From positions 1 through 64,000 of the forward strand of contig JANYAD010000043.1 in the NCBI GenBank assembly GCA_025355165.1: a stretch of DNA of 64,000 bases, given 5' to 3'. Below are positions 4,739-12,466 of this stretch, piece after piece. Each line of letters opens with the position of its first letter. Positions within the stretch are counted from its first letter, which is position 1. This DNA comes from Gammaproteobacteria bacterium. Lineage in GTDB: Bacteria > Pseudomonadota > Gammaproteobacteria > Steroidobacterales > Steroidobacteraceae. A model generated the notes under the pieces. That model saw only the letters and a program-made list of their open reading frames with translations, was not told where the DNA came from and searched no databases. A program made the translations under genes and the position numbers.

Positions 4739-5128
4739 ATGGCTTATGTCGATATCGTGACTGCTCTCGCAGTTCTGCAGTTCATCGTGTTCGGATTTAA
4801 GGTGGGCGCGGCCCGCACCCGATACGGAGTCAAAGCACCGGCCATTACCGGCAACGAGATTTTCGAGCGCATTTTCCGGGTCCAGCAAAATACTCTGGAG
4901 CAATTGATTGCTTTTTTGCCCGGGATTTACCTTTTCTCCCATTACTTCAGCCCGAGGGTTGCCGCGGCTTTAGGTGCAATCTATTTGGTCGGACGTGAGA
5001 TCTACGCCTATACATACGTTAAGGACCCCGGCAAGCGGGATGTGGGCTTCGGTATGACCTTCTTGCCCCTGGTGATCCTCGTGGTGGGCGGGTTGATCGG
5101 CGCGGTCCGCGCACTTTTTTTCGCGTAA
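4739..5128 (+). CDS. MAPEG-family membrane protein
   Basis: A 129-residue four-helix membrane protein. The ATG at 4739 follows a good GGGAGG ribosome-binding site at about 4726-4731. The segment NEIFERIFRVQQNTLEQL is the MAPEG signature (E-RA-R-Q-N-E type), followed by hydrophobic helices and the conserved REIYAYTYVKDPGKRDVGF loop. MAPEG proteins include microsomal glutathione transferases and eicosanoid-related enzymes; bacterial members are poorly characterised and may detoxify lipophilic electrophiles. The TPP riboswitch of the next gene begins about 17 bases downstream. Confidence 0.88.
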   Translation: MAYVDIVTALAVLQFIVFGFKVGAARTRYGVKAPAITGNEIFERIFRVQQNTLEQLIAFLPGIYLFSHYFSPRVAAALGAIYLVGREIYAYTYVKDPGKRDVGFGMTFLPLVILVVGGLIGAVRALFFA

Positions 5129-5144
5129 CATAATCTCTTAGTAC

Positions 5145-5243
5145 AACGCTGGGGTGGCCTTGAAGGCCTGAGATGCTGGCAGCTTTTTAGAGCCCATCAG
5201 CAAACCCATTGAACCTGATCCGGTTAATACCGGCGGAGGGAGC
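5145..5243 (+). promoter_or_regulatory. TPP (THI-box) riboswitch, translational type
   Basis: The region carries the conserved THI-box landmarks in order: GGGGTGG at 5151-5157, a hairpin GGCCT-tga-AGGCC at 5156-5168, CTGAGA at 5168-5173, ACCCATTGAACCTGATC at 5204-5220, a CCGG-ttaata-CCGG hairpin at 5220-5233, and GGCGGAGGGA ending at 5241. GCT at 5148-5150 can pair with AGC at 5241-5243 to close P1. The ribosome-binding site GGAGGG (5235-5240) of the TonB receptor lies inside the aptamer's 3' strand, three bases before the ATG. Binding of thiamin diphosphate should therefore hide it and block translation. No separate terminator is visible. Confidence 0.93.
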
Positions 5244-7376
5244 ATGGGTAAACTATCGACCATCCTGTTTGCCGCATCGATTCTTTCATGTGCGGCGAGC
5301 GCCTCGAGTACCAGCGACAATGGGCCCTTGGACGAAATCATCGTCACGGCTACCCTGCGCAAAGGCTTGCTGGAAGAAACGCCCGGCAGCGTCTCGGTGC
5401 TCACCGGCACGACGCTGCACGATGCCGGTCAACAACATTTCGAGGATGTACTGCCGCTGGTTCCTAACTTGAATTGGGCTGCCGATACCTCTCGGCCGCG
5501 ATATTTTCAAATACGCGGCATCGGCGAGCTGCAGCAATATCAGGGTGCGCCCAATCCTTCCGTGGGATTTCTCATCGACGATATCGACTTCAGCGGGCTG
5601 GGCTCGGCGGCAACGCTGTTCGATGTGGATCGCATTGAAGTGCTCCACGGTCCCCAGGGCACACTGTACGGCGCGAACGCCCTCGCCGGGCTCATCTACG
5701 TCAAGAGTGCGGACCCGGTGGACACCTTTGGCGGCCGCGCGGAATTGGATGTCGGCGACTACAACGAGCGCTCCTACGGCGCGGTGATCACCGGTCCGGT
5801 AAGCGCGCTCGACTCCGCATTCCGGCTCGCCGTGCAGCGGTACACCGGCGATGGCTTCTATCACAATGCCTATCTTGGCCGCAGCGACACCGACAAACGC
5901 GATGAGCTGACCGTGCGCGCAAAATGGCGGTATCAACCGAGCGATGCATGGCACACCGATGTGACCCTGCTGCGCGCGCAAATGAACAACGGTTACGATG
6001 CCTTTGCCGTCGATAACAGCCGCACTACGCAATCGGATCATCCCGGGGTTGATCGTCAATATTCCACCGGGCTCTCTGCCCGCTCGACGTATACCGGGCT
6101 CGGCGCGGCGACGCTCACCACCATCGCAACGTATGCGGACACCCATGTCGACTATGGCTTCGACGGCGACTGGGGTAACCCTACTCTGTGGGCGCCTTAC
6201 ACCTTTGACTTTACCGACTATCAGTTGCGCCATCGCTCGACGCGAAGCCTGGAATTCCGCCTAGGCGACACCCCGGCGAAGGGGCCGGATCACGGCATTT
6301 CCTGGCTGTTCGGTGTCTACGCCTTCGAGCTGCGCGAATCGCTGGCGGATACCAATGCCGGCACCTACATCGATCCTTTCGACGCCACGCAGAGTTCCGA
6401 CACCCTGACGGTCATAACCAGCCGCTACCGCTCGCGCAGCGGTGCCCTGTATGGACAGCTCGATGGCGACTTCGGCACGAGGACACGGTGGTCGCTGGGC
6501 TTGCGCAGTGAACGGCATACCAGCCATTACAACGACATCACCACGAACTTGAGCGCGGCGAGCATGGCGAACAACTTCGCTCCTGCCGATAATCTTTGGG
6601 GAGGCGAGGCCTCACTTGATCTCGCCGTCGCCGAAGGCCAGCACGTGTACGTTTTGGCCTCGCGCGGCTATAAGGCGAGCGGCTTCAATCTGAGTGCCGG
6701 CTTGGCGCCAAACCAGGTGCAGTTTGGCCCGGAATGGGATCTGAACCTCGAGATGGGCCACAAGTTGCAACTGGACCAAGGCCGGCTGCGGATCGACACC
6801 GCTTTGTTCTACATGGGGCGCCACAACGAACAACTGCTGACCGGCGAGCAGTTGGATCCCAGCAACCCCAACACCTTCATTTACTTTACCGGCAATGCGA
6901 AATCGGGGTTCAACTACGGTTTGGAAGGATCGGCGAGTTGGGCCGCCACGCGCCGCCTTGAATTCGGCGGCTCGCTCGGTCTCCTTCAGACCCGCTACCG
7001 CGGCTTCGTGCAGAACGGCTTAACCCTCCCCGACCGCGCACTGCCCCATGCACCTCCCTGGCAAGCCGCGCTCAATGCGACGTTTCGAGACCCGCGCGGA
7101 CCCTACGCGCGTCTCGATGTCACGGGCCAAGGACCCTTCTTTTATGACTTGCCGCCGAATAGCACCCGATCGAGTCCATACGCATTGGTCAACGGTAAGC
7201 TAGGCTGGGACTCCCCGCACTGGGAGCTGTACTTGTGGGCCCGAAATCTGCTCGATAAGAATTTCACGGTGCGCGGTTTCTATTTCGGCGATGAGCCGCC
7301 CGACTTTTTTAACAAGCTGTACGTGCAACTGGGCGAACCGCGCAGTTGGGGCTTGCATCTCACGGCCAAGTACTAG
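5244..7376 (+). CDS. TonB-dependent outer-membrane receptor under TPP riboswitch control (candidate thiamin/precursor receptor)
   Basis: A 710-residue protein with a signal peptide ending near residue 20 (ASILSCAASAS) and a possible TonB box DEIIVTA near residues 29-35. A plug domain follows (TPGSVSVLTGTTLHDAG, RYFQIRGIGE, VDRIEVLHGPQGTLYGANAL). The long beta-barrel ends in an aromatic-rich strand (WGLHLTAKY). TonB receptors import scarce nutrients through the outer membrane. The directly attached TPP riboswitch implies repression when thiamin diphosphate is plentiful, so thiamin or a precursor is the likely cargo; this is inference from regulation, not from binding residues. The plug resembles the general FecA/siderophore class. 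No inner-membrane thiamin transporter lies nearby. Confidence 0.9.
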   Translation: MGKLSTILFAASILSCAASASSTSDNGPLDEIIVTATLRKGLLEETPGSVSVLTGTTLHDAGQQHFEDVLPLVPNLNWAADTSRPRYFQIRGIGELQQYQGAPNPSVGFLIDDIDFSGLGSAATLFDVDRIEVLHGPQGTLYGANALAGLIYVKSADPVDTFGGRAELDVGDYNERSYGAVITGPVSALDSAFRLAVQRYTGDGFYHNAYLGRSDTDKRDELTVRAKWRYQPSDAWHTDVTLLRAQMNNGYDAFAVDNSRTTQSDHPGVDRQYSTGLSARSTYTGLGAATLTTIATYADTHVDYGFDGDWGNPTLWAPYTFDFTDYQLRHRSTRSLEFRLGDTPAKGPDHGISWLFGVYAFELRESLADTNAGTYIDPFDATQSSDTLTVITSRYRSRSGALYGQLDGDFGTRTRWSLGLRSERHTSHYNDITTNLSAASMANNFAPADNLWGGEASLDLAVAEGQHVYVLASRGYKASGFNLSAGLAPNQVQFGPEWDLNLEMGHKLQLDQGRLRIDTALFYMGRHNEQLLTGEQLDPSNPNTFIYFTGNAKSGFNYGLEGSASWAATRRLEFGGSLGLLQTRYRGFVQNGLTLPDRALPHAPPWQAALNATFRDPRGPYARLDVTGQGPFFYDLPPNSTRSSPYALVNGKLGWDSPHWELYLWARNLLDKNFTVRGFYFGDEPPDFFNKLYVQLGEPRSWGLHLTAKY

Positions 7377-9435: not shown

Positions 9436-11073
9436 CTAAGGAGTGCGCAGAATTCCATCTTCAACGCGCTGCGTTTGAAAGCGCACCGTGACCGTTTGAT
9501 TGGCAGGAACCTGCAGGCGGAATACCGGTTTGCCGTTCTTGCTGCCCAACGGATGATCGGCGCGCAACACACGTCCGCCCTCGGGCAGCGCAAGCTTCAG
9601 TTCGAATTGAATGGCGGCTGCGCAGGCGTTGCTGATTTCGACACGTCTAACATCGTGCACTTTAACCGAGCGCAGACTCCACCCCGCAACCAGCGGCACG
9701 AGGTCGGCTTGCTCGCTGTCGACCCGGGTTTGTTCCCCGGTCACCGTGACCTGAACGTCGGCAGTCAATCCAGCCTCAATTTCCACCTCTTCGCCCACCG
9801 CGATATCGCGCATGTCGGATTGGTGCTCGAGCAGGCTTTCCCCTTGATGGGATCCAAATAATGCGATCGAACCCGAGGGCAGGGGGAGCCCGAGGTGATT
9901 GGCGGTCGTGTTTTTCGTTCGAAGTAATCGGCGTGCTGGCACCGAAGCAGCCGAAACTTCGCCCACCTCCGCTGCATAGACCGTGTTAACCGGGATCGAG
10001 GCGCGATCGATCAACCGCACCTGTTTTGATTGACGGCTGGCAACGGTGGTGCGATCCGGTACGCGGTACAGCTTTAAATCACCGAGCTGCTCCTGCTCTA
10101 CTTTCCTTGCGCCAGCCGCGGCCATTTCCCGCGACGCGGCCATCGGCACGGGCGCATTGATCATCGATATTTTAAACATTCTGGAGCGAGCCTCATCCAT
10201 CAAAAGCATCATCGGCGGCTCGCTGGTGGTACCGCGCGGCCAGCACATGGCGAACACCGGGCCGCCAAATTCGATGGGCTCCACCTGACCGCTCTCGCGG
10301 TTGACCCTGCCTGCCACCACTTGGGTGTGCGCCAAGGGGAATCCGACGCCGTTGGAATTGGCGAGCGTGACCCAGGCCCCCAAATCCATGCTGTTGCCGT
10401 CGGGCGCCAGCGTCGCCGTGTAATCGGCCGCCCAATCGAAGCCGCGAGCCAAGTACGAGAGGATAATTTGCGCGGTCACTGCGACGGGGCTGCGCACCTC
10501 GACAGATAATGTCGGCTTGGCCGACAAACCCGAGACCGGCTCGAAGCTGAAGGTCTCCGGCAAGCCCGAGCAGCGCAATGCCTCAATGCCTTGCGCGGAT
10601 TGGAATACCACGCCCGCGCCCGCGTCGGACAGGATGGTGCCGGACAGCCGCTCGGTCTTGCCGGTTTTGCGGATGGTTCGCAGCAACTGCACCGGCCTGC
10701 CCACCGTGGCGGCGAGCAGCGCTCCTGGGCTCAATAATTTAGCATCGCGATTCTTTTCGATCACCCCGCCCGGGAATCCCGTGATGATGGCGCTGGCCGA
10801 TTCGATCCCATCGGCCACCCCCTCGAAGCGCACGCGACTCAAGCCCGCGGGCAGTCGGACGGTGCGCGTTTCGCTCACCAAGGCAAAGCCTTGCAGCGCA
10901 TCGAGACGAATGGAACCGGTGTCCCGATAAGGCGCGCGATACACCGTTACGATTAAATCCGAGGGCGGTTCCGCCGAAATCTCGGCCGAGGCGGCTTGCG
11001 CGCGGACCGAAGCGTAGGACAGGACGGAAGCAGCCGCGGTTCCTAGGCCTAAAATTAACGCCCTCGCACACAT
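9436..11073 (-). CDS. DUF4139 family protein, divergent second copy
   Basis: A 545-residue predicted exported protein. The ATG at 11073 gives a clear signal peptide (MCARALILGLGTAAASVLS, cleavage near AQA); a start at 11124 would overlap the upstream gene and bury the signal. The N-terminal domain (FALVSETRTVRLPAGLSRV) and later core (LSYLARGFDWAADYTATL, AWVTLANSNGVGFPLAHTQV) match the DUF4140/DUF4139 architecture. It has the same segment order as its neighbour at 11081-12466 but is longer and quite diverged. Seven bases separate the two, so they are probably one operon and an old tandem duplication. DUF4139 has no established biochemical role; the domain is predicted to be beta-rich. Confidence 0.85.
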   Translation of the reverse strand: MCARALILGLGTAAASVLSYASVRAQAASAEISAEPPSDLIVTVYRAPYRDTGSIRLDALQGFALVSETRTVRLPAGLSRVRFEGVADGIESASAIITGFPGGVIEKNRDAKLLSPGALLAATVGRPVQLLRTIRKTGKTERLSGTILSDAGAGVVFQSAQGIEALRCSGLPETFSFEPVSGLSAKPTLSVEVRSPVAVTAQIILSYLARGFDWAADYTATLAPDGNSMDLGAWVTLANSNGVGFPLAHTQVVAGRVNRESGQVEPIEFGGPVFAMCWPRGTTSEPPMMLLMDEARSRMFKISMINAPVPMAASREMAAAGARKVEQEQLGDLKLYRVPDRTTVASRQSKQVRLIDRASIPVNTVYAAEVGEVSAASVPARRLLRTKNTTANHLGLPLPSGSIALFGSHQGESLLEHQSDMRDIAVGEEVEIEAGLTADVQVTVTGEQTRVDSEQADLVPLVAGWSLRSVKVHDVRRVEISNACAAAIQFELKLALPEGGRVLRADHPLGSKNGKPVFRLQVPANQTVTVRFQTQRVEDGILRTP

Positions 11074-11080
11074 GGCGGGG

Positions 11081-12466
11081 TTAGTACCGGGTTTCGAAGC
11101 TGGCGGTGAGGCTCGCCTTGCCATTGGCAGGCACCGTCACCGCCCATTCTGCGGCCTCGGCACTCAGCCTTGCGCCGTTTTGACTCGCGGCCTTGATGCT
11201 CGCATCGCCCCACAGTCCTTCTTGGCGCAGTTTGACCACAACGGGGCGCAGCAGCGCATTGGTCAACTCGTAGCGCATGTCCGTCAGCCAGTCGAAAGTT
11301 GCCAGGCGAGTGCGTTTGTCGACGATGGCGTGGACTTTGACATCGAAGGCGTCCCCGGTTGCCAGCGACAGCGTGGAGCCCAGGGGCGTGTGATCGATAC
11401 GGCTCTCGCCGATGAACTGCGCATCGCCGCGCTTGTCGCGCATGTAGAAACGCAAGATCCCGGCCGGCAATTGATCCCCCAATCCGGCATGAGCGCTAGT
11501 GGAAAAGCTATAGATGCTCTTTGCGCTCAGCGGCGTTTCCGCAGTCCCGAGCCAGCGATTGCGAAACTCGTAGCCGTGTTCGGCAGCTACGCCGTGCACG
11601 TCGAGGAAACTGACCTGCTTGGTCTGCTGGTTCGCGATGGTGGTCCGTTCGGCTAGGGGATACAGATAATAGTCACCCAGCCGCTCGCGGCTACCGCTTT
11701 CCGTTCCCGGATTTTGCAGCGTGGAGCGGCGCATGGGCGATCGATAATTGTTCGCGCCCCCTTCAGACTCTACCTGGCTCGGCGAACCGGCAACCAGCAG
11801 TGTTTGCGCATTCTCATAGGTGGTGCCGCTGGAGTTCGTCAGTGTCACCCATCCCTGTACGTCGATCTTGCTGTCGCCTTCGTTGTACAACGCCACGTAA
11901 TCCGCTTTCCAACCCAGGCCGGGCGTAAGGTAGCTCAAGGTCGCCGCGCGAGTTCCCGCATGCGCGCCGACGACGGTGACAGACAGCGTCGGCCGCGCGC
12001 GAAGGTTCTCCGGCACTTTGTTAAAAATTACCCGCACCGGCAATCCGTCATCGCGCAACACCTCGATGCGCTGACCGATTTTCAACACGACGCCGTTGTT
12101 GGTCGCGAGCACCTGCGCCTGCTCCCGTGTCTCGGCGCCCGTGGCCGGATTGACTCGGACAATGGTGATTTCTTGGCCTATGGCCTTTTCCATCAACTTG
12201 GCGGGAGTCAGGAGGTCAAAATCGAAGTTCTGTTCGACAATGCTGATGTCGCCTGCCGTCAAGGAGGCGGTTTCAGGCCGAATTTGCGCCGACACATCCG
12301 TGAATTCGATGCGCTGGCGGCCAGCCTTGATATCGATGTCCCGGCGCTCCTGCACCAGCGCCAGATCACCTGTGTAGATCGTCACGGAAAGGGCTTTATC
12401 CGCGGCCGCGCCCGATCCTACCGGCAGCAAGGCCGCCCATGCCATGCACCAAAGACCCATACGCAT
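11081..12466 (-). CDS. DUF4139 family exported protein
   Basis: A 461-residue protein with an N-terminal signal peptide (MRMGLWCMAWAALLPVGSG, cleavage near AAA). Residues about 27-60 (VTIYTGDLALVQERRDIDIK) fit the opening domain seen in DUF4139 proteins. The core TLSYLTPGLGWKADYVALYN, then GWVTLTNSSGTTYENAQTL is typical DUF4139, and the protein ends in the usual beta strand TASFETRY. The function of the family is unknown. It is the first gene of a tandem pair inside a minus-strand run of envelope genes (pbpG upstream, mrdA downstream), which suggests a periplasmic or surface role. That is inference from context. Confidence 0.87.
   Translation of the reverse strand: MRMGLWCMAWAALLPVGSGAAADKALSVTIYTGDLALVQERRDIDIKAGRQRIEFTDVSAQIRPETASLTAGDISIVEQNFDFDLLTPAKLMEKAIGQEITIVRVNPATGAETREQAQVLATNNGVVLKIGQRIEVLRDDGLPVRVIFNKVPENLRARPTLSVTVVGAHAGTRAATLSYLTPGLGWKADYVALYNEGDSKIDVQGWVTLTNSSGTTYENAQTLLVAGSPSQVESEGGANNYRSPMRRSTLQNPGTESGSRERLGDYYLYPLAERTTIANQQTKQVSFLDVHGVAAEHGYEFRNRWLGTAETPLSAKSIYSFSTSAHAGLGDQLPAGILRFYMRDKRGDAQFIGESRIDHTPLGSTLSLATGDAFDVKVHAIVDKRTRLATFDWLTDMRYELTNALLRPVVVKLRQEGLWGDASIKAASQNGARLSAEAAEWAVTVPANGKASLTASFETRY

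Follow-up and report, generated by a model that had tools for sequence, protein, structure and literature searches.

The stretch of 64,000 nucleotides analysed here (the window) contains a TPP aptamer (THI box, RF00059) at positions 5140-5258 (+), which runs into the gene of a TonB-dependent receptor at 5244-7376 (+). In the Rfam covariance-model scan of the window the aptamer is the sole match; with 74.9 bits (E 6.4e-13) it exceeds the gathering score of 54.3, and it covers the full-length model (1-105) and was recovered again in a genome-wide search. Both conserved core segments, CTGAGA and AACCTGATCCGGTTAATACCGGCGGAGG, were found. Score and core thus confirm the element as a TPP riboswitch aptamer, for which binding of TPP is predicted. 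The initial annotation had recognized the THI box and delimited the locus well, except that the aptamer model begins at 5140 and not at 5145. Just before the riboswitch, at the end of a MAPEG gene, lies a GC-rich hairpin followed by a T run (5088-5120, +), a possible terminator of a kind of which a comparable number is expected by chance in the scan. Elsewhere in the window (9436-12466, -) two adjoining paralogous genes share 30% identity over 394 residues; the one at 11081-12466 matches DUF4139 weakly, below the cut-off, while its neighbour has no Pfam match.

The receptor comprises 710 amino acids with a Plug domain (PF07715, E 8e-16) and a TonB barrel (PF00593, E 1e-21), both above the Pfam cut-offs. 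A TonB box-type motif, LDEIIVTA, is located about 28 residues from the start, and the N-terminus resembles a signal peptide as judged by eye. The closest solved relatives are the pesticin receptor (the top profile match), YncD and a PQQ transporter, so that thiamin as a substrate cannot be derived from the protein sequence alone. The assignment as a predicted thiamin/thiamin-phosphate importer of the omr1 type draws on the domains together with the orthologues and the aptamers upstream of them.

The Rfam alignment places the translation start signals of the receptor within the aptamer itself. The Shine-Dalgarno sequence GGAGG (5235-5239, +) is perfectly complementary to the 3' tail of 16S rRNA and is separated from the ATG by 4 nt (GGAGGG, AGC, ATG), in accordance with the earlier description of a Shine-Dalgarno sequence inside the aptamer three bases before the start codon. 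Its bases A5237-G5239 form the 3' strand of P4 and pair with C5214-U5216 (pairs 5214-5239, 5215-5238 and 5216-5237), and the 3' strand of P1, GCAUG (5242-5246, +), holds the start codon at 5244-5246. P1 of this aptamer is weak, with non-canonical pairs at two of the five Rfam pairs. The same arrangement is seen in homologous loci: the nearest homologue of the receptor (L143, 72% identical) has a GTG at exactly the place of the start codon, and another locus (L144) has an ATG at the same aptamer position. The overlap of the Shine-Dalgarno sequence with P4 and the location of the ATG in P1 confirm that the leader has the layout of a direct, platform-less riboswitch, with regulation predicted from this layout. 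Direct control of a TonB receptor by a TPP riboswitch, as first proposed, is supported by these overlaps and by the Plug and barrel domains.

When folded without constraints, the leader adopts a structure of -40 kcal/mol that is not the aptamer, for which about -30 is calculated. In this fold AUGGGU (5244-5249) pairs with ACCCAU (5204-5209), the 3' strand of P2, so that the start codon is paired in the apo calculation as well, and folding gives no clean support for an open apo state. The aptamer might then act as an ON switch, releasing the start codon from this pairing, or, alternatively, as a transcriptional switch. We regard both as improbable, since the AUGGGU/ACCCAU pairing is absent in the nearest homologue and is therefore likely a coincidence, no terminator-like site was found between aptamer and ATG, and the position of the Shine-Dalgarno sequence within P4 means that ligand binding should hide it. 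The promoter and terminator scans gave nothing above chance, and no sigma-70-like promoter was found near the aptamer. Very probably, the riboswitch stops production of an outer-membrane vitamin importer by masking the signal at which its translation starts.

We then turned to the thiamin genes of the genome, a draft of 4.16 Mb in 271 contigs that is estimated to be 100% complete, although a draft could miss genes. It contains exactly two TPP riboswitches. The second, which answers the question of further TPP riboswitches raised by the initial annotation, precedes an operon encoding a YkoF-family protein, a PnuC/PnuT-family transporter (NMN_transporter), an APH/choline-kinase-like kinase and a 2Fe-2S ferredoxin, on another contig than the receptor. 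At this locus (L032:3261-5466, -, on contig C142 of the genome) the ATG of the ykoF-like gene is found at L032:5351, a few bases past the aptamer core, and its riboswitch also looks platform-less. An assignment of the second riboswitch to a PhzF-like gene was rejected because the aptamer is encoded on the minus strand, ahead of the ykoF-like/pnuT operon. As this is the only other TPP riboswitch, PnuT is the likely inner-membrane partner of the receptor by genomic association. The earlier remark that no thiamin genes lie beside the receptor is correct locally; such genes are present elsewhere in the genome, and the inner-membrane partner then called unknown is very probably PnuT. In 83 of 102 related genomes pnuT lies directly 3' of the receptor.

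ThiC was not detected in the draft genome by a search that was positive in 13 of 14 control genomes, nor was a ThiE/TenI-family gene (11 of 14 controls positive with the same search), while ThiL is present (310 bits). A single weak match to ThiG was rejected, since it falls within a 400-aa ORF that resembles, as judged from its sequence, an FMN-dependent hydroxy-acid dehydrogenase. With ThiL present and neither ThiC nor ThiE found, thiamin synthesis appears to be lacking in this genome, whereas import of thiamin and its phosphorylation to TPP appear possible, and the host is predicted to be a thiamin auxotroph.

To place the locus in its wider context we analysed 147 genomes of the order to which the host belongs. 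A TPP riboswitch is present in 113 and ThiC in only 25 of them, so that most of the sampled genomes, being without detectable ThiC, probably depend on external thiamin. A receptor homologue lies downstream of 101 of the 120 riboswitches examined; other targets in the order are thiC (in one genus of the family), the ykoF-like/pnuT operon and an apparent thiM-thiE-thiD-tenA salvage operon. The latter was seen at one locus (L045, contig C12 of genome G105), in a relative of the host that has the receptor as well. Receptor orthologues occur in 102 of the 147 genomes and coincide with ThiC in a single one (Fisher p 3e-14), whereas PnuT-family proteins are found in all 102 receptor genomes and in 6 of the 45 others (p 1e-29); both tests treat genomes as independent and ignore shared ancestry. 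The pattern of receptor, PnuT and ThiC extends over many families of the order, within which the genome of the window, like those of close relatives, belongs to the minority with receptor and pnuT split. The one genome in which ThiC and the receptor coexist (G033, contig C225) has pnuT adjoining the receptor and no riboswitch called there. In another genome (G036) two contigs carry nearly identical riboswitch-receptor starts (L048 and L049), one of which continues into a truncated receptor and a transposase-like ORF, possibly a disrupted duplicate.

These distributions bear on the cargo of the receptor, for which the initial annotation had named thiamin or a precursor. Import of a related compound instead of intact thiamin, whether an HMP-type pyrimidine, a thiazole or a breakdown product, followed by salvage to TPP, would be in line with the control of precursor transporters such as thiV by TPP riboswitches (PMC2211319, PMC10881298), with the listing of YkoF-type proteins as B1/HMP-binding (PMC10881298) and with the ThiE/TenI-family gene kept in 6 of the 102 receptor genomes. 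No such gene was found in the other 96 or in the window's genome, however, so that the known route would not be available for the coupling of HMP with HET, and PnuT, when expressed heterologously, has been shown to transport thiamin (stated in PMC5613172). Without ThiC and ThiE, neither a pyrimidine nor a thiazole precursor would be sufficient on its own by the known route. We therefore consider a salvaged compound unlikely as the cargo and intact thiamin or its phosphates the likely one; the importer prediction holds, and its precursor part is narrowed by the undetected ThiE and ThiC.

Outside the order we examined the best-scoring 80 of 548 candidate homologues, taken from named genomes, using a covariance model made from the aptamers of the order. 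Their sources include Shewanella, Ferrimonas, SAR86, Thiomicrorhabdus, Methylophaga, Teredinibacter, Bacteriovorax and Opitutaceae. A TPP aptamer lies upstream of the receptor in 77 of these 80 best-scoring homologues, across several phyla, and at least two of the three homologues that lack it start at or near a contig end. Among 47 loci examined, 34 have pnuT within 3 kb downstream, usually in the order ykoF-like, pnuT, kinase. At three loci from Cocleimonas and a Gemmatimonadetes MAG a second TPP aptamer was observed a few kb ahead of the aptamer adjoining the receptor (L184:2120-2248, L185:2082-2191 and L209:181-278). The aptamer association across phyla, together with the tracking of PnuT presence and ThiC absence by the receptor, cannot be explained by chance linkage. 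This renders it highly improbable that the protein is a siderophore or other metallophore receptor behind a THI box by happenstance, even though its best NCBIfam model is a TonB-siderophore subfamily (below its cut-off) and its top solved profile match is the pesticin receptor. Taken together, the data give us high confidence that 5244-7376 encodes a candidate importer of the omr1 type, a TonB-dependent outer-membrane protein for thiamin and/or its phosphates, under predicted direct TPP-OFF control in a predicted auxotroph.

In the proposed mechanism, the receptor mRNA would begin with the TPP aptamer, which would act without an additional expression platform. At high TPP levels the aptamer would fold, P4 and P1 would hold GGAGG and the start codon, and translation would stop; when TPP is scarce the aptamer arms would open and the receptor would be made. 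The cargo would then pass the inner membrane via PnuT with the help of the YkoF-like binding protein, and the co-encoded kinase, whose specificity for this cargo we infer, would act with ThiL to phosphorylate it to TPP, closing the loop.

Comparison of the leaders of 81 full-length members of the order indicates that this direct layout is not universal. Measured from the end of P1, the start codon is found at -3 to +9 nt in 49 leaders and at least 31 nt away in the remaining 32; the near class may be somewhat inflated because the script choosing the starts favoured a near start if one existed. A CCGGATC-like element complementary to GATCCGG of the aptamer was found in 16 of the 32 remote-start but only 3 of the 49 near-start leaders (p 8e-6), as expected for a classical anti-aptamer/sequestor hairpin; the leader in the window has none. 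A preference for GGAGG in direct leaders is not significant (p 0.08). On a tree of 124 receptors 13 changes between direct and hairpin leaders are needed, at least 11 of them forced by well-supported branches, compared to 41.6 in shuffles. On balance, we slightly favour the view that one orthologous receptor gene has repeatedly swapped its riboswitch output, between an aptamer that serves as ribosome-binding site and start and a downstream CCGGATC anti-aptamer hairpin with a remote start. If true, the receptor family would represent a natural experiment on the loss and gain of expression platforms. It is also a clean setting in which platform-less and hairpin riboswitch outputs can be compared on one gene.

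The receptor is a further member of the already known omr1 (OMthi-like) class. This class includes S. oneidensis SO2715, on record as a TPP riboswitch-linked TonB receptor (PMC2659441), in a genome where SO2713 is pnuT (PMC5955497), omr1 of SAR86 and Flavobacteriales MAGs, with a nearby riboswitch reported for SAR86 (PMC10881298), and omr of metagenomes, with PnuT as predicted partner (PMC2659441, PMC5955497, PMC10881298, PMC2211319). As in the window, a TonB receptor directly follows a TPP riboswitch in these systems and PnuT is the predicted partner; comparison with such riboswitch-linked receptors, also suggested at the outset, identifies those of Shewanella, Ferrimonas and SAR86 as homologues with TPP aptamers upstream. 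In contrast to them, the receptor of the window and the pnuT of its genome lie apart under individual riboswitches, and the receptor leader has no separate platform; for the Shewanella receptors examined, the start is found about 68-89 nt beyond the AGGRA motif of the aptamer. In B. thetaiotaomicron, a biosynthesis mutant needs more thiamin once OMthi (BT2390) is deleted (PMC5613172). By description, OMthi likewise combines a TonB receptor, a TPP riboswitch and a separate PnuT locus (PMC5613172), but it belongs to another phylum and to an organism that also makes thiamin. From these records the class is known as a prediction, with genetic support in another phylum, and the present analysis connects an uncharacterised receptor from a widespread lineage of Gammaproteobacteria with the uptake of vitamin B1 and names its partners.

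TPP riboswitches with the ribosome-binding site in the aptamer core, in which the purine-rich conserved 3' end is the Shine-Dalgarno sequence and no further platform exists, have been described before (PMC2258182, Barrick and Breaker 2007). The end of the aptamer serves the same role in the leader of the window, and direct burial of the Shine-Dalgarno sequence by a TPP aptamer is thus not a new mechanism; less expected are its prevalence in this receptor gene and the repeated exchange. In the same survey direct regulation was commonest in Actinobacteria and Cyanobacteria (PMC2258182), whereas here most examples of one gammaproteobacterial receptor gene have the direct form, and the ATG of the window's receptor is itself part of P1.
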